The notes: a model not told the origin generated them from the sequence alone. A stretch of DNA of 40,967 nt from an uncultured Bacilli bacterium (GCA_947589435.1 CANQBI010000013.1:1-40967), one strand, 5' to 3'. Counted from the first letter of the stretch, positions 8,189-40,967 are shown. Translations and numbers: made by a program.

Positions 8189-9412
8189 TTATGAACCACT
8201 CAAACTTGTGATGATGTATGGACTAGATTCTGTCCCTGTTCCTATTATGCTTACTTCGGATTCAAGATAGAAGACTGGGCGAACCGCAATCCTACTGTCC
8301 ACCCAAGTGTAGTTCATGGAGCCGTTCGAATGCGTAAACCACGCCTCGTAATGGCTGCTACCATAGCCATACCTAGTCATTGTCCATTCGTCAGTACTTC
8401 CATATGTCCCTGTTTTTCCGCTCATTGTGTTGGTAATATGAAGCCAACTATTAGTGTTTCTTGCGTATGTCCATGAATTATAATAATCACTGGCATACAT
8501 TAAACCTATTGGGTATTTTGAACTCGTTCTTGTTTTTGCCTCTGCTCCACTACTTGCTGCGTTCGTTCTATTTCCTTTCCACCAATATACTTCTTTTATT
8601 AAGTCTTTTACCCCTAGTCCATTGTAGAAACCACTTTCATTTATTGATACTCTTACTGTATTACTTGCATTATCCCAATCTATATTTGATTCATAATTTG
8701 TTGACCATGCTTGGCTTGTACTTGAAGGAATTACTTTTATTACCTTTAACATGCCTTTTTCTAATCCTAATGAATTACTTTCATTGGCTTCTGTTCCGTC
8801 GGTTACTCCGATTATACGATATAAATATTTATTGTTTTCAGCACTTCCACATGTATCTGGGTTAAGTGGCCCTCCTATACATACGAAGTTATTTGTTACT
8901 TGGTCTTTGGTCCCTTTAAATCTATATAATCCTTCTACTGCTACTCTACTTCCTTGTTTTCCTTGTCCTATTGTTGTACCACTACCATAATATTCTCCAC
9001 CTTGAGCATCTAATGTTTCTAATGCATGTCTTCCTTTACCAAAGTATAAGGTACAATATATGGTTTGTTTTGTTTTAATGTGTGCTGTATATGTTGTTTC
9101 ATCAAATGACAAAATATTTTTACTTGGCACACTTACTCCTTCACTATCAGTACATTCTGCCCCTGCATATAAGTATACATTTTTATCTGGCCATGTATTT
9201 CTGTCTTCTGCTTCATGCCATCCAAAATCATTTTCTCCTTCATTTTGAATCATTATAGCTAGTGATTTGTCTTTTTCTTTAAATACATCTATTGTTTTAA
9301 TGTCCTCTAAAACTTTAGAATTTTTTGAATTATTAAAATAAACATAAAATTCAAATATTACACTTATTGTTAAAACTACTACTAAAACATTTAATATTAT
9401 TCGCTTTTTCAT
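8189..9412 (-). CDS. Membrane-anchored surface protein with DGR-type variable C-terminal domain
   Basis: 407 aa. Residues about 4-27 are a hydrophobic signal/anchor; the rest is extracellular, Ser/Thr/Tyr/Asn/Gly rich with a few Cys. The C-terminal domain has YPIGLMYASDYYNSW, then RYGYGSSHYEAWFTHSNGS, then SRIAVRPVFYLESEV. This layout (W/G core ending in AVRPVFYL) is that of variable domains served by diversity-generating retroelements, and it aligns with both template repeats near 38.9 and 40.3 kb. Start ATG 9412 follows AAGGAG. It is 13 nt downstream of the G-tract gene, so one operon is likely. The ligand is unknown. Confidence 0.75.
   Translation of the reverse strand: MKKRIILNVLVVVLTISVIFEFYVYFNNSKNSKVLEDIKTIDVFKEKDKSLAIMIQNEGENDFGWHEAEDRNTWPDKNVYLYAGAECTDSEGVSVPSKNILSFDETTYTAHIKTKQTIYCTLYFGKGRHALETLDAQGGEYYGSGTTIGQGKQGSRVAVEGLYRFKGTKDQVTNNFVCIGGPLNPDTCGSAENNKYLYRIIGVTDGTEANESNSLGLEKGMLKVIKVIPSSTSQAWSTNYESNIDWDNASNTVRVSINESGFYNGLGVKDLIKEVYWWKGNRTNAASSGAEAKTRTSSKYPIGLMYASDYYNSWTYARNTNSWLHITNTMSGKTGTYGSTDEWTMTRYGYGSSHYEAWFTHSNGSMNYTWVDSRIAVRPVFYLESEVSIIGTGTESSPYIITSLSGS
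8263..8370 (-). other. Variable-region-like segment of the surface protein
   Basis: 36 codons from AGG TAT GGC to TTC TAT. Same length as template TR2 after removing one base, and its 3' end (GCGGTTCGCCCAG then CTTCTAT) is almost identical to TR1. By my hand alignment to TR2, about 16 differences fall on template adenines and about 15 on other bases. The segment is therefore related to, but not directly copied from, either template in this window. Confidence 0.55.
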
Positions 9413-35274: not shown

Positions 35275-36390
35275 ATGAATATTATTGGTATTATTTGTGA
35301 ATATAATCCTTTTCACAATGGACATATTTATCATTTACAAAAAATTAAAGAAATGTATCCGGACTCTTTAATCATTTTAGTTTTAAATGGTTACTTTTTA
35401 GAACGTGGGGAAATTTCTTTATTATCGAAAGAAAATAAAACTAAAATAGCTCTTCAAAATAACATCGATATCGTATTAGAATTACCTTTTGTTTTTGGAT
35501 GTCAAAGTGCCGATAAATTTGCAAGTATTTCTGTGCAAATGTTAGAGAGTTTTAAATGTGATTATGTCATTTTTGGGAGTGAATCTAATGACATTCATAA
35601 ATTAGAATTAATCGCCGATTATACTCTAAATAATCAAGATGAATATAATACTTTAGTTAAAAGTTATTTAGATAAAGGCTTAAATTACCCCACGGCTCTT
35701 GCTAAAGCCTTAAAGATTGACTTTGATTTTACGCCCAATGATTTACTAGGTATTTCTTATGTTAAAGCGATAAAAGAAAATAATTATCATATTAAACCTC
35801 TAACAATTAAAAGAACTAATGACTATAAAGATACCACTTTAAATAGTGATATAGTGAGTGCCTCCAATATTAGGGAAAGAATAAAGAATAATAAAAGTAT
35901 TAAAAAAATGGTTCCTGGGATTACTTTAAAATATTTAGAAAATATAAGTTTAGATAATTTATTTCCTTACTTAAAATATAAAATAATCACGGATAATAAT
36001 TTAGATGACTATTTAGATGTTGAAGAAGGAATCCAAAATCGTCTTAAAAAAATCATTTATGACTGTTTTAATATGGATGATTTAATTAATAAAACGAAAT
36101 CTAAAAGATATACTTATAATCGTCTAAGAAGAATGTTTATTCATATTTTAATTGGTCTTAAAAAAGAAGATATTAAAAATTTAAATTTAGAATACATTAA
36201 AGTATTAGGTTTTAATAATAATGGTAAAAAATATTTAAATAAAATAAAAAAGGAAATAGATATTTCCCTTACTTCCTTAAAAGATTCTCTTACCTATACT
36301 TATGAACTTAAATGTGCCTCTATTTATGATTTAGTAAGTAAAAATAAGGCTTTAGAATTTGAACTTCATAACAAACCAATCACTAAATAA
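35275..36390 (+). CDS. tmcAL: tRNA(Met) cytidine acetate ligase TmcAL (YlbM)
   Basis: 371 aa. Nucleotidyltransferase start IGIICEYNPFHNGHIYHLQK (residues about 3-22) with the HxGH-like motif, VLNGYFLERGEI near 36, LPFVFGCQSADKFA near 70, SDIVSASNIRERI near 193. The enzyme makes ac4C at the wobble base of elongator tRNA-Met from acetate and ATP. The family is confined to Firmicutes and relatives, which supports the lineage. Ribosome binding site GAAGTG. Convergent with the DGR operon. Confidence 0.95.
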   Translation: MNIIGIICEYNPFHNGHIYHLQKIKEMYPDSLIILVLNGYFLERGEISLLSKENKTKIALQNNIDIVLELPFVFGCQSADKFASISVQMLESFKCDYVIFGSESNDIHKLELIADYTLNNQDEYNTLVKSYLDKGLNYPTALAKALKIDFDFTPNDLLGISYVKAIKENNYHIKPLTIKRTNDYKDTTLNSDIVSASNIRERIKNNKSIKKMVPGITLKYLENISLDNLFPYLKYKIITDNNLDDYLDVEEGIQNRLKKIIYDCFNMDDLINKTKSKRYTYNRLRRMFIHILIGLKKEDIKNLNLEYIKVLGFNNNGKKYLNKIKKEIDISLTSLKDSLTYTYELKCASIYDLVSKNKALEFELHNKPITK

Positions 36391-36428
36391 ATGTTTAGAA
36401 TACCGAAAGTTTTAACCATAATAAAAAT

Positions 36429-36716
36429 TTAATTTATTAAATCTTTCCAAGAATTAATTAAATTGGTTAATCTAAATCTTAAATAATAAATATTATACAT
36501 ATTATTTTCATATTCCTGATGGTCTATTATCTCCATATTTCTTACTATAATATAATTTATTTTTAAGCGTTCTAAATCTTTTAATTTGCGAAATTTTAAA
36601 AATTTTAATAATTCTTTATCTTCTTTATAACCAATATACTTATTATCTTTTTGAAATAATATAATAGTCTTGGGATAAGTTCTTTTAATAAAAACATATC
36701 TATTTTTGTAAGCCAT
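36429..36716 (-). CDS. Small protein of the DGR operon, perhaps MutS-domain-I-like
   Basis: 95 aa, overlapping the reverse transcriptase gene by 17 nt, so it is part of the operon. The start RYVFIKRTYPKTIILFQKDN and then KINYIIVRNMEIIDHQEYEN resemble the opening strands of MutS domain I (KEKYPDxxLLFxxGDFYE), but the metal and mismatch residues are missing. The assignment is weak; a role in the retroelement is inferred from position only. Confidence 0.45.
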   Translation of the reverse strand: MAYKNRYVFIKRTYPKTIILFQKDNKYIGYKEDKELLKFLKFRKLKDLERLKINYIIVRNMEIIDHQEYENNMYNIYYLRFRLTNLINSWKDLIN

Positions 36717-37824
36717 GCACTCTATTAAACCAATATTTATTGATTGCCCTTCTAACTTTCATTTGACTTCCATATTTTCTGTTATACCAATAACTCATTA
36801 TCGAACAAAAAGCTTCATTAAAAGAAATAAAACCATGTTCATACATATAATAAGTTCTTTTAACTCTTTTTTTTGTTTTTTCATAGGCTTCTCTTCTTAA
36901 TCTCACAATTGTCTTCTTACCTACAACTTTGTAATTGTATCCTAGAAAAACAAACCCTTCATTATTTTTTACTATTTTGGTCTTTTTACTATTTAATTTT
37001 AATTTATACTTAGTATTTAAAATAGTTTCAATTTCTTTTAAAGCATTTTCTAAGACTTTCTTATCATGATGAATTAAAACAAAATCATCCATATAACGCA
37101 CATAATATTTAATATGTAAATTATGGACAATATAATGGTCTAATTCATATAAATAAAAAATAGATAAAAATTGACTAGTCATATTTCCAATAGGTAACCC
37201 TTTACCGTATTCATAATAAGGTAGACTATCAATTTCTTTTTTAAATTGTGGGTGTTTCTTCGTATAATTTGTTTTAATCGTTTTAATAATTTTATTTATA
37301 TATTCTTCATTGGTACTATCAATAATTATTTTTAAAAAGTCATATTCTTCTTTTGATAACTTATCTTTAACAAGACTCATTAAAACTTCATGATCTATAG
37401 AATAAAAATACTTGCTTATGTCTAGTTTTAAAATATAAAAAGTTTCATATTTTTTATTTTTCTCTAAAAATTTTTTAACCATTTTAATTCCATAATCCGT
37501 ACCCATACCTTTACGGGTAGCGATATTCCGGTCATCTAAATATTTAGAAAGTTTTATTTCTAAAACGTATCTCGCAATAAAATGATTAATAATTTTATCC
37601 GTGATACTTAAAGCCATCACAATCCGATGCTTAGGCTCTTTAATCAAAAAAATATTATATTTTCCCCCATCATACTCCCCTGTTTTAAGGACATTAATTA
37701 TATGATTTATATTTTGAAATTTATTTTTCTCAAACATATATACTTTATGTTTGTTTTTAACATTTTTGGATATTTCTTTTTCATATAAATTTAAAATGGT
37801 ATCTAAATTACAATGTTCCTTCAT
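36700..37824 (-). CDS. Reverse transcriptase of a diversity-generating retroelement
   Basis: 374 aa, DGR-RT length. Motif order: RKGMGTDYGIKMVKKFL (residues 104-120), catalytic Asp in LKLDISKYFYSIDHEV (132-147), GKGLPIGNMTSQFLSIFYLY (207-226), which is the DGR-type [LIV]GNxxSQ motif, and YYVRYMDDFVLI (240-251) with the YMDD box, then LNSKKTKIV and FLGYNY. These features, with no maturase or endonuclease domain, separate DGR enzymes from group II intron and retron enzymes. It copies a template RNA with errors at adenines. Overlaps Avd by 17 nt. Confidence 0.88.
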   Translation of the reverse strand: MKEHCNLDTILNLYEKEISKNVKNKHKVYMFEKNKFQNINHIINVLKTGEYDGGKYNIFLIKEPKHRIVMALSITDKIINHFIARYVLEIKLSKYLDDRNIATRKGMGTDYGIKMVKKFLEKNKKYETFYILKLDISKYFYSIDHEVLMSLVKDKLSKEEYDFLKIIIDSTNEEYINKIIKTIKTNYTKKHPQFKKEIDSLPYYEYGKGLPIGNMTSQFLSIFYLYELDHYIVHNLHIKYYVRYMDDFVLIHHDKKVLENALKEIETILNTKYKLKLNSKKTKIVKNNEGFVFLGYNYKVVGKKTIVRLRREAYEKTKKRVKRTYYMYEHGFISFNEAFCSIMSYWYNRKYGSQMKVRRAINKYWFNRVHGLQK

Positions 37825-38188
37825 TACTTTTACTTTCTTGGATACTATATTTTATCCACCTGTAAACCATTTTGGAAATAGCTTCAAGTTCATTTGATTT
37901 ATTTAAACATTGTTTTTCATTAATATATTTTTTCTTATAAGCTCTTTCTAAATAAAAATCTAACATATTAATTTTGGCTAATATTTCTATTTGCAAATGA
38001 TTTTTTTCTTTAATATCTTCTATTTCATTAGCAATAAAAACTAATTCTAAAACTTTTAAAGCATCTTTATAAATCATATCTTTAGTCAAAAATTCTTTTC
38101 TGGGAAAATTAACTAACATTGTCTCTAATCCTAGAATGAATTTTTTCATGTTTTTAATTATTAAAAATTTTTCAGTTCGATATTGCAT
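37808..38188 (-). CDS. avd: Avd-like accessory protein (four-helix bundle)
   Basis: 126 aa from the ATG at 38188. All-helical, basic, with the pattern of Avd and 23S-rRNA-IVP proteins: LETMLVNFPRKEFLTKDMIY (residues about 22-42), KVLELVFIANEIEDIKEKNH, IEILAKINMLDFYLERAYKK, INEKQCLNKSNELEAISKMV and WIKYS at the end. Avd forms a pentamer that binds the reverse transcriptase and template RNA and is needed for mutagenic copying. It lies directly before the RT gene and overlaps both neighbours. Confidence 0.82.
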   Translation of the reverse strand: MQYRTEKFLIIKNMKKFILGLETMLVNFPRKEFLTKDMIYKDALKVLELVFIANEIEDIKEKNHLQIEILAKINMLDFYLERAYKKKYINEKQCLNKSNELEAISKMVYRWIKYSIQESKSNEGTL

Positions 38189-38552
38189 CTTCAATTACTT
38201 CAAGTATATGGTCTAGTTCTTTAGCATTTAATTTGCGAATTGCCGTTTCAATTTTTTGAAACCGCTCTTCAATAGATAATTCGCTAATTCCTTTTTTAAG
38301 AATATTTTTGTAATTATTAATTTTTTTAAAATTTTTTTCATCTTTTTTCTCGTTTTTTTCATAAACTACATAAGATATTTCATTGTCTAGTAAAGCATTT
38401 ATAACTTTGTTATAGGCAGTTTCGGGAAACCCTACTCCCCCTTTTTCCGCCACAATTTTATAACCAGTAATATAATGAAGCACTATCGCATCATCTCCAA
38501 AGACATTATAAAATTTGCCGGAACGTCTTAGTTCAACTACGTCGTTTTTAAT
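38172..38552 (-). CDS. MutS-domain-I-like DGR accessory protein, probable ATT start
   Basis: 126 aa. LRRSGKFYNVFGDDAIVLHY near residue 8, then GYKIVAEKGGVGFPETAYNK and LLDNEISYVVYEKNEK give the fold pattern of MutS domain I (GDFYExFGxDA ... GVPxxAxxxxxxxLxxxGxxVAICEQ). A Lys-rich linker and a helical C-terminal part (LSIEERFQKIETAIRKLNA) follow. I extend it past the GTG at 38483, because that start would cut the domain; the only start codon upstream is ATT at 38552, with AGGAG 10 nt before. Small MutS-like (MSL) proteins are known DGR partners. Confidence 0.65.
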   Translation of the reverse strand: MKNDVVELRRSGKFYNVFGDDAIVLHYITGYKIVAEKGGVGFPETAYNKVINALLDNEISYVVYEKNEKKDEKNFKKINNYKNILKKGISELSIEERFQKIETAIRKLNAKELDHILEVIEDAISN

Positions 38553-38631
38553 TTTTCACCACTCCTTTTTTAGTTTGTCGCATTTCTCATAATTTTATTT
38601 ATAAGTTCATCACCTACCTACTCTTAAGATG

Positions 38632-38660
38632 ATTATAACATTATTTTTCTAATCTTTAAA
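38632..38660 (-). promoter_or_regulatory. Promoter of the DGR protein operon
   Basis: Minus strand: -10 TATAAT (38632-38637), 17-bp spacer, -35 TTTAAA (38655-38660, weak). It lies between the TR1 terminator and the operon, with a leader of about 75 nt. Confidence 0.55.
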
Positions 38661-38689
38661 TATAAAATTTTTAAATTCTCTTTTTGCGA

Positions 38690-38738
38690 GAAAAAATAAC
38701 GGAGTGCTAAACAAGTTTCGTAAAACTTATTATCTCCG
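38690..38738 (-). terminator. Hairpin and T tract ending the TR1 RNA
   Basis: Minus strand 38738-38700: outer stem CGGAG/CTCCG, inner stem AAGTTT/AAACTT with tetraloop TACG, then ATTTTTT. The equal-length hairpin after TR2 keeps pairing with different bases at four positions. The run of T makes it a plausible Rho-independent terminator. Confidence 0.8.
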
Positions 38739-38798
38739 TTTTTAGTTTGGAAATATATTCCTAGATAATCTTTGTCTTCTATCTTCCCTAGTATATAG
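38737..38798 (-). repeat. 62-nt spacer identical to 40190-40251
   Basis: Every base is shared with the second template unit, while the template cores differ in length and in many bases. Such conservation suggests that this part is needed for cDNA priming, as the spacer is in the Bordetella phage DGR. Confidence 0.85.
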
Positions 38799-38971
38799 CC
38801 ATAGCCATATAATCACTCAAGTTATAGAAGGCTGGGCGAACCGCATTCGTATTGTTCACATTGCCATTATTCCAGTCCAAGGAGCCGCTCGTATTCACAT
38901 TCCACGCAATGTAATTGCCCCAGTCGCTGTTGTAGCCATACCTAACACTTATATCAAGATTACCTATCTAT

Positions 38972-38980
38972 ATTATATCA
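38972..38980 (-). promoter_or_regulatory. Extended -10 promoter of TR1 RNA
   Basis: Minus strand TGATATAAT (hexamer 38972-38977). The same nonamer precedes TR2. No clear -35. A terminator for the upstream gene lies just before it, so TR1 is an independent unit. Confidence 0.6.
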
Positions 38981-39005
38981 TTATTTATCTTTTTATTTTA
39001 ATATA

Positions 39006-39034
39006 ACTAAAAAAGTATCAATTAATGATACTTT
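39006..39034 (-). terminator. Terminator of the Rpn-family gene
   Basis: Minus strand: AAAGTATC/GATACTTT 8-bp stem (39012-39019 with 39027-39034) and a run of T. It isolates the template RNA unit from the gene before it. Confidence 0.8.
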
Positions 39035-39045
39035 ATAACATAAGA

Positions 39046-39967
39046 TTATTTTAATTTTTCAATATCTTCAGTATTTAAATTAGTAATCTCAGATATTTCT
39101 TTAATGGAGTATCCTTTTTCTAACATATTCTTGGCAATGTCTTTTTTATTTTCTTCGATACCTTGAATTTTTCCCTCTTCAATGCCTTTAACTATACCTT
39201 CCTCGATGCCTTCCTTTTTGGCTTCATTAACTCGCATTTGTTCTCTTATCTTAGCCTCTTCTTCTCTACTTATCTCTCTTCTGAATACAAAATCATCATT
39301 TAACTTTTCCACTTCTTCTTCCACTCCCTTTATTAGTTTATCTACCTTTGCTAACTTCCTTAACTCCTCTTTATTAGCATCTAACATTACTAAATAAATG
39401 TGAGTCTTATCTCCTTTTATGTTCTTATCATACCAAAGATGCTTATACTTTGCAATATTAACCGTTATGATTTTAAAACTATTGCTATATCTTACTCCTT
39501 TAGCATCTTGAACATAAAATGTTTTCTTCTCTTCTTCCTTTTTACTTTCATTAAAATTAATATCAATATGTAAGACTTCTAATTTTTCATCAATATCTTC
39601 GATATATTCTCCCCTTAACTTCTTTTGAGAGTATAGTGATGTATAATATACTAAATTTCTTTCTTTGGTTGATTTATCAAAGTTAGTATTTAATTCCACA
39701 TTTATTAATTTATTATCTTTAGTACTTACTAATATATCTAAGATATTTACTTTACTTTTGACATTCTTAATAGGTAAATTCTGTAGGGACAAAACTAATT
39801 ATCTTTACTTCTTCCTCTAAAATATCTGTTAATACTTTTTCTAAAACTTCTGGATTAACATCTATTACCTTTTTAAATACTCTATCATATTTTAAATGAT
39901 AAAATTTATTTCCTTCATTTTCCCCATTTTGTTCTTCTAATTCATTTTCTATTTTTTCTGCTAGCAT
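39046..39967 (-). pseudogene. Rpn-family (PD-(D/E)XK nuclease/transposase) gene, frameshifted
   Basis: Starts at ATG 39967 (AAAGGAGGAG upstream). The first frame, KYDRVFKKVIDVNPEVLEKV then IISFVPTEF, shifts at a TTT run near 39779-39782; the second continues LPIKNVKSKVNILDILVSTK, LINVELNTNFDKS, KKLRGEYIED, KTHIYLVMLDAN and a Glu/Gly coiled repeat (EEGIVKGIEEGKIQGIEE). The D-x-N ... VEL-x-T core matches the PD-(D/E)XK family of Rpn recombination-promoting nucleases. One T less would give about 306 aa. Mutation or sequencing error. Confidence 0.75.
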
Positions 39968-40141
39968 TAAATCTCCTCCTTTATTTTTATCCAACTAATT
40001 AACCGTTTTTTATTCTTTTTTTACTATTAAAATTTAAGTCAATATTTTTCCTCCCTTCACTTATATTATTGTAAAAAAATCTCGGATTTCCTTTTTTTTC
40101 GTGAAATTTCTTTTAAAAAAGAACACATTTGTTGTAAAAAT

Positions 40142-40191
40142 GCAAAAAATAACGAGGTGATAGATAAATCTCGTAAAATTTATCATCCTCG
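40142..40191 (-). terminator. Hairpin and T tract ending the TR2 RNA
   Basis: Minus strand 40191-40153: outer stem CGAGG/CCTCG, inner stem ATAAATTT/AGATTTAT with tetraloop TACG, then ATTTTTT. Same 39-nt length as the TR1 hairpin, with compensating base changes. Confidence 0.8.
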
Positions 40192-40251
40192 TTTTTAGTT
40201 TGGAAATATATTCCTAGATAATCTTTGTCTTCTATCTTCCCTAGTATATAG
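40190..40251 (-). repeat. 62-nt spacer identical to 38737-38798
   Basis: Second copy of the perfectly conserved spacer between template and hairpin. Homology between the two units extends on both sides, from the hairpin to the promoter. Confidence 0.85.
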
Positions 40252-40414
40252 TCTTAACCATATAATCACTCAAGTTATAGAAGGCTTTGGCGAACCGCAT
40301 TCGTATTGTTCACATTCCAGTTGTTCAAGTTGCCGTCCGAATTCACATTCCACGCATTGTAATCGCCATAATTGTTGCCATACCTATCATAATTATCAAG
40401 ATTACCTATTTATA

Positions 40415-40423
40415 ATTATATCA
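40415..40423 (-). promoter_or_regulatory. Extended -10 promoter of TR2 RNA
   Basis: Minus strand TGATATAAT (hexamer 40415-40420), directly after the stop codon of the truncated Rpn gene. Confidence 0.55.
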
Positions 40424-40804
40424 TTATTTTATTTTCTTTTTTATTTCATTTAACTCTTTTAAAGAAATATTAGTATATTTTCTTATTTCTTTATTAGATA
40501 ATCCACTTTGAAGCATATTCTTTACAACTGATACAAGTTCTTCTTTCTTTCCTTCTTTTTTTCCTTCTATCCTTCCAGTTTCTTTGCCATCAGAATAAAT
40601 AAACTTCTTTTCAAGTTCTATTTCATCTTCTCTTGTTCTATTAATAGTCAATGTTCCATCTTCATTAAATATATACACTTGATTTCTAACCTCCCTTACT
40701 AATTTATCTTTCTTACTTAATTTATCTAATTCTTTATCATTACATCCTAACATAGCCAAATATATATGTTCTTTTTCCCCTTTCAAATTCTTTGTTAAAG
40801 TCAA
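40424..40804 (-). pseudogene. Truncated C-terminal part of an Rpn-family gene
   Basis: About 126 aa: KGEKEHIYLAMLGCNDKELD matches the KGDKTHIYLVMLDANKEELR part of the neighbour, followed by the charged coil (EGKKEGKKEEL) and LSNKEIRKYTNISLKELNEI. The PD-(D/E)XK nuclease core is missing; upstream the frame meets a 98-bp direct repeat. It opens with a TTG only. It is probably a non-functional duplicate of the Rpn gene at 39046-39967. Confidence 0.7.
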
Positions 40805-40967
40805 TATAAAAATTTTTTTTAAGTCCTTTTAATTATGTAGGAAATCCTACATTTTTATATTAGCACTATCACAGTTTTTAAGTAGATTATTGTTAAAGTC
40901 AATATAAAAATGTAATATTTGGTCCATATAATTATGTAGGAAAACCAACATTTTTAAATGAGCCTTA
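40793..40967. repeat. 98-bp direct repeat at the right edge
   Basis: TGTTAAAGTCAATATAAAAA recurs at 40793 and 40891, 98 bp apart, and each copy continues with AATTATGTAGGAAA about 40 bp later. In the first unit that part is a perfect palindrome (ATGTAGGA/TCCTACAT, 40835-40852) followed by T. The second unit is cut by the window edge. No gene seen here. Confidence 0.65.

Follow-up and report, generated by a model that had tools for sequence, protein, structure and literature searches.

Protein operon and template RNA units

The DNA under study (the window) is a stretch of 40,967 nucleotides from an uncultured Bacilli bacterium of the gut (GCA_947589435.1, CANQBI010000013.1:1-40967). Within positions 36429-40430 its minus strand carries an operon encoding a MutS domain I-like protein (MSL; 38172..38552), an Avd-like protein (37808..38194), a reverse transcriptase (RT; 36700..37824) and, as the last gene, a conserved 95-residue protein of unknown function (36429..36716); two template RNA units lie upstream on the same strand. 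MSL, Avd and RT keep the same order in relatives, where the 95-residue protein is likewise conserved, following the RT or near it.

The RT was recognized by RVT_1 (E 3.6e-18) and displays both motifs of the DGR kind ([ILV]GxxxSQ and YxDD) as LPIGNMTSQ and YMDD, in agreement with the GNMTSQ and YMDD reported by the initial annotation. Its open reading frame is intact and 72-100% conserved in relatives, and the protein has a single match in the whole genome. The best match in a PDB profile search was 8ub7 (E 2e-26), listed there only as "Reverse transcriptase" and which we take to be the BPP-1 RT, followed by a group II maturase (1.5e-12). Assignment as a group II intron was not met, there being no Rfam match at E <= 1 in 36000-40967 and an RT score of 94.6 bits against a cut-off of 300 (group_II_RT_mat); nor was that as a retron, with 49 bits against a cut-off of 235 for the Retron St85 model and an associated RNA that carries a template matching coding genes.

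The description of the second protein as Avd-like stands only in part: it weakly matches NF033474 (E 2.2e-8) and Pfam bAvd (E 2.3e-6), but both scores fall below the curated cut-offs, and the PDB profile search gave no match for it; the gene is nevertheless kept in the operon. The MutS-like character of MSL was borne out by MutS_I (E 3.1e-8), a match that lies above the cut-off when the reading frame is extended upstream of the first ATG, GTG or TTG, and the gene is kept beside Avd and RT in relatives. At the 5' end of this frame (38546-38570) there is no in-frame ATG, GTG or TTG; the start codon is possibly ATT, or there is a frameshift within an A run. An in-frame GTG is apparently present in the homolog of genome G003.

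Unit 1 (38691..38964, minus strand, 274 nt) runs from GGTAATCTT to a T-run and was delimited by the unit alignment and a covariance model (E 5.5e-31). It contains template repeat 1 (TR1; 38835..38943, AGGTATGG to GGTTCGCC), which the variable repeats (VRs) C26v, C1v2, C15v and C9v match with A-biased differences, and it ends in a terminator hairpin and T-run with a covarying stem (38691..38740). Unit 2 (40144..40406, minus strand, 263 nt; E 1.1e-29 and unit alignment) comprises TR2 (40289..40385), the best template for VRs C3v1 and C12v2, and a terminator of the same kind (40144..40193), also with a covarying stem. The extended -10 TGATATAAT precedes both units on the minus strand (38972..38980 and 40415..40423), and both contain an identical 62-nt stretch (C+TATATACTAGGG...AAAAACG). 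All of these elements had been named in the initial annotation and are seen in the sequence, as is the terminator that it placed before TR1, a minus-strand hairpin with T-run at 39033-39009. Between the two units (39046-39994) lies a frameshifted gene for an Rpn-like recombination-promoting nuclease, an intact copy of which adjoins another template unit, C6a (L054:2582-3475).

The template RNA is a covarying RNA of about 265 nt, in which five helices hold in an alignment of 38 units. One joins the 5' end GGUAAUCUU to AAGAUUAUC in the spacer, another the template 3' end CUUCUAU to AUAGAAG in the spacer; the remaining three are a small hairpin, the terminator stem and a stem inside it. Paired cells amounted to 95.8%, vs 87.7% in shuffles and 41-54% when the register was slid, and the real structure surpassed all 500 shuffles in covariation, 18 of the 34 pairs having changed on both sides. 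An unaided RNAalifold consensus recovered the same helices. A known RNA family was ruled out in so far as Rfam gave no match at E <= 1 in 36000-40967.

With at most one mismatch, the -10 is found in all 38 units, and in 36 of them it lies 6-8 nt before the conserved GGTAATCTT. The TG extension, although present in both window units, occurs in only 8/38, thus an extended -10 cannot be taken as general. A -10-like hexamer also appeared in 57% of shuffles of this AT-rich DNA; since the bare hexamer is weak evidence, the promoter argument rests on its fixed place. From promoter, terminator and covariation we infer, without RNA-seq data, that the units would be transcribed separately.

Copy number and distribution of the units

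Each window repeat, used as query, returned 12 further full-length copies in the genome, just the kind of additional units that the initial annotation had suggested searching for, and a covariance model derived from the 3' portion of the 38 units found exactly 13 (all E <= 7.2e-27). The window contig has two, C6 has four, three of which lie within 3.5 kb, and C7 has two; C4, C11, C18, C28 and C45 have one each, which makes 10 separate places on eight contigs. A binning artefact was rejected: several contigs and several genomes each carry more than one unit, and co-binned strains cannot explain the 13, because 8/13 sit on three contigs carrying at least two. Phage origin was also rejected; searches of viral contigs gave only two weak matches (23-27% identity), and the system therefore looks cellular.

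Among congeners the template RNA was present in 18/38 genomes, in 1 to 13 copies (0-13 across all), and template and target numbers correlate across the 38 genomes (rho 0.60). In an order-wide sample every RNA match fell within one family, with 1-3 copies outside the genus. Related Bacilli MAGs, with rabbit gut as a frequent source besides ruminants and other origins, supplied 80 RT loci, and 54 of these have the RNA near the RT. Because of this proximity and of the 1-3 copies outside the genus, a template RNA adjoining the operon is the likely ancestral state, with multiplication later in this genus.

Genome G037 (L121, L145) carries 11 well-conserved template RNAs and no RVT_1 match in a 94%-complete assembly; the RT may have been lost, its contig may be missing, or the set of templates may exist without the enzyme. 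In G026 the RT-proximal unit lacks the template core and six other units match the model in full.

The idea of templates multiplying as cassettes is favoured by the expansion in copy number and by joint duplication with neighbouring genes (L049, L051, L054 and window 39046-40406), but no insertion mechanism could be shown. The Rpn-like nuclease gene was duplicated together with two units (TR2 and C6a), and a DUF3800-like gene, its family assigned by eye, lies downstream of three duplicated ones (C7b, C6b and C6c). At the RT locus of G031 the upstream flank of TR2 is joined to the downstream flank of TR1 and the Rpn gene is lost. Judged from such comparisons (window 38691-40406 vs G031:C4 L275 and G026:C7 L285), the template units look like recombination junctions. 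Also by eye, the C45 unit is near AbiE-like and the C4 unit near MazF/PemK-like toxin-antitoxin genes (L053:361-1729, L055:1473-1889).

Target genes, variable repeats and the landing site

One target gene lies in the window itself (8189..9412, minus strand), identified by its VR match, a structural model and lectin-like alignments; it encodes a membrane helix, a beta domain and a lectin-like domain. Its VR (8262..8375, minus strand), followed by the landing site (IMH) CAGTCTTCTATCT, differs from template C45 at 14/32 template adenines and at 9/74 other bases. Elsewhere about 20 VRs match templates. When 20 VRs in 19 genes were aligned with a scoring that has no preference for A, mismatches were found at 321/629 (51%) of template A positions vs 211/1487 (14%) of other bases; the excess at A is absent when mismatches are counted by target base, hence the direction is from template to target. 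The outcome that would have refuted the initial annotation, namely no gene in the genome matching a template with adenine-biased differences, was thus not met.

The target family, scattered over many contigs, numbers about 45 paralogs; at E <= 1e-20 there were 47 matches, since some genes were hit twice. The proteins have a membrane helix at the N-terminus, a beta domain and, C-terminally, a lectin-like domain, and the centre of the VR lies about 40 codons before the end of the gene. At about 1.2 kb each, these genes amount to about 4% of the 1.4-Mb genome. Many C-type lectins aligned with the target model at Z 4-6 over residues 175-387, the best alignment (Z 13.8) being with a Thomasclavelia IgA peptidase; Foldseek alone, run on the same model, returned nothing under E 0.1. 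A C-type-lectin-like fold is in consequence a prediction that is supported, not proven, and display of these proteins on the cell surface is an inference.

The VRs are hypervariable between near relatives. Comparing G000 with its relative G031, the VR was clearly less alike than both flanks in eight of the 12 reciprocal-best target pairs with a scored VR, as in one pair with 74% identity in the VR vs 91% and 95% in the flanks. Not all paralogs are currently diversified: in about a third, resemblance to a template hardly exceeds chance or does not exceed it at all, and one paralog is 99.8% identical in G000 and G031.

Different VRs have different best templates (C11, C13a, C6b, C6c, C6d, C45 and C13b each being the best for some), and template-target pairs are not clean, many VRs having 5-20% non-A mismatches to their best template. 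A clean one-template-to-one-target pairing was looked for and not found; segments of a VR often fit different templates (e.g. C4v). In L067:1550-1658 and other VRs the 5', middle and 3' parts match different templates, which may reflect mosaicism or templates missing from the assembly.

Directly after the VR most targets read CCAGTCTTCTATCT. Valine is encoded there by GTC in 31/44 cases vs 27/809 elsewhere in the same genes, and phenylalanine by TTC in 35/41 vs 60/429; because these codons are rare elsewhere in the genes, the IMH nucleotides are conserved beyond what the protein requires. The target GTCTTCTATCT complements the spacer's AGATAGAAGAC exactly, and this 11-nt site is found in most targets. 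The same spacer segment that pairs with the template 3' end thereby complements the target, and its fit to the template's own 3' end is poorer than that to the target, IMH and its template counterpart IMH* being different (CAGTCTTCTATCT in the VR vs AGCCTTCTATAACTT in the TR). At several loci of other genera both partners have changed and yet match each other, the spacer reading AGATAAAGGAC and the VR GTCCTTTATCT; at several others the complementarity is not exact. Several templates have extra or fewer bases between CGCC and IMH* that are absent from the targets; since these length differences would shift the frame, transfer must stop before them, and GGTTCGCC probably contains the end of the transferred tract. 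An invariant spacer adenine, that of AUAGAAGAC, directly follows the helix formed with the template 3' end; a G in the template just upstream of this helix is likewise invariant.

Interpretation and relation to known DGRs

RT motifs, A-biased TR/VR differences, a VR near the gene 3' end and a difference between IMH and IMH* are all met, hence membership of the DGRs is well supported, with the reservation that Avd scores below cut-offs and that retrohoming activity is inferred. The canonical cassette, in which a single template is transcribed with avd or RT, is not met. Very probably this is a cell-encoded DGR whose template became a small structured RNA gene and multiplied, one operon serving 13 of them in trans. 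The G026 unit that lost its core while six others stayed complete speaks for this reading, as does the joint rise of template and target numbers; the sub-threshold Avd scores, the unclean template-target pairs, the missing RT of G037, the paralogs without template similarity and the loci of other genera lacking exact spacer-VR complementarity speak against it.

The MSL-Avd-RT operon would act on the 13 template RNAs, each predicted to start at GGUAAUCUU and to fold back by pairing this end with the 3' spacer. The CUUCUAU-AUAGAAG pairing would then bring the invariant spacer adenine next to the template, and this adenine, by analogy with BPP-1, may prime mutagenic cDNA synthesis. In the case of TR1, the spacer RNA ...AGAUAGAAGA extended by the putative cDNA CTGGGCGAACC... 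would equal exactly the bottom strand of the target IMH. Given a shared IMH, every template could act on every family member of sufficient homology, and a common landing site combined with many templates would allow one enzyme set to serve the whole family. The priming model is an inference that rests on sequence alone, without biochemistry. The proposal of the initial annotation that stand-alone templates let one enzyme serve many remote targets gains support from the 13 units, the single RT and targets on multiple contigs, trans service itself being inferred.

As to the role given to the landing site, the complementarity of spacer and IMH might be a mere by-product of spacer-template pairing and template-target homology, with no separate recognition or priming element. 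Template and target do have the core CTTCTAT in common, and within the RNA this core pairs with the spacer; yet the target GTC..CT fits the spacer where the template has GCC/GAC and an AA bulge, and the target retains GTC and CTN although codon preference runs the other way, making the by-product account unlikely, though one that deserves to be kept in mind. We give little credence to the view that this is an ordinary DGR in which one or two templates are active and the remainder are decaying copies, spread through duplication and recombination and out of use. Some units are degenerate, as the core loss in G026 illustrates, units were duplicated with neighbouring genes and look like recombination junctions, and G037 has units without an RT, all of which would suit such decay. 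It is hard to reconcile, however, with 13/13 units keeping the -10, all helices and the terminator, with template cores that retain adenine-rich codons and an open frame, and with VRs that differ in their best template, the seven units named above each being the best for some VR. That the whole system is a fossil, with nothing but remnants left of template, targets and RNA and with VR differences of old date, seems to us very improbable indeed: there are no activity data to exclude it and non-A mismatches between VR and template are many, but the RT reading frame is intact and conserved, the VRs vary strongly between near relatives, and compensatory changes maintain the RNA pairing.

Known DGRs usually have one template beside the enzyme, and in BPP-1 the target is a C-type lectin. 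The likeness of our reading, a DGR with dispersed template RNA genes, to BPP-1 extends to the RT and, at sub-threshold similarity, to Avd, to a spacer with a candidate priming adenine and to an IMH opposed to a mismatched IMH*: cDNA synthesis in BPP-1 is primed from an adenine inside the spacer and begins at the template 3' junction (PMC12875486), and directionality is imposed by an IMH that is mismatched to the template (PMC3240598). The BPP-1 template is single and located between avd and brt, whereas here 13 RNA genes are dispersed over the genome, each with its own terminator and a short, structured spacer; a MutS-like protein accompanies the RT, and the chromosomal targets are many. Cyanobacterial DGRs have many remote C-type-lectin targets for few RTs (survey PMC7517822; Trichodesmium PMC8867640); there the targets multiplied, here the templates did too, as separate RNA genes. 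In the parts of the MetaCSST survey available to us, Stenotrophomonas SKA14 has two TRs and Pseudomonas costantinii six, the latter case being termed atypical with few A-to-N changes (PMC6642488); these resemble the present system in having more than one template per DGR, and those parts do not describe stand-alone template RNA genes spread over a genome. In Thiohalocapsa PB-PSB1 targets are diversified in trans (PMC10907252), by several partly complete DGR loci and not by one RT operon with many template genes.

Within a literature search that reached few subscription papers and preprints, we came across no description of template RNAs that are numerous, dispersed and independently promoted, and no paper on DGRs in this bacterial group. 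As far as that literature goes, what is new is the organization, with templates as dispersed single RNAs in this number; multiple templates, remote targets and action in trans were already known. Such a DGR is organized like a guide-RNA system, one protein set with many small RNA genes and many targets, and most of its templates would escape surveys that search for repeats in the neighbourhood of the RT gene (as in PMC8144416). With the conserved RNA as a model, orphan templates can be searched for; it also offers a template design that is compact and brings along its own promoter and terminator. Whether DGR templates evolve through the system's own errors becomes a testable question.

On this last point we compared 22 templates from the three nearest genomes. 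At nine anchored AAC/AAT codons, 63 changes were found at the two A positions vs eight at the third, and there was no silent change at the third position only; counted as distinct variant codons the figures are 33 vs 3 (p 5e-4), such p-values being rough as the sequences are related. Templates may have been overwritten by mutagenised cDNA or converted from diversified targets, residues becoming fixed in a growing template library, a proposal that we advance tentatively and regard as quite possible if short of probable; if true, the library would be a kind of heritable memory. Of two ortholog pairs, C6d and G031:C67 are 89% identical in the core and 96-97% in the flanks, and in C7a and G031:C12 the core is unchanged.
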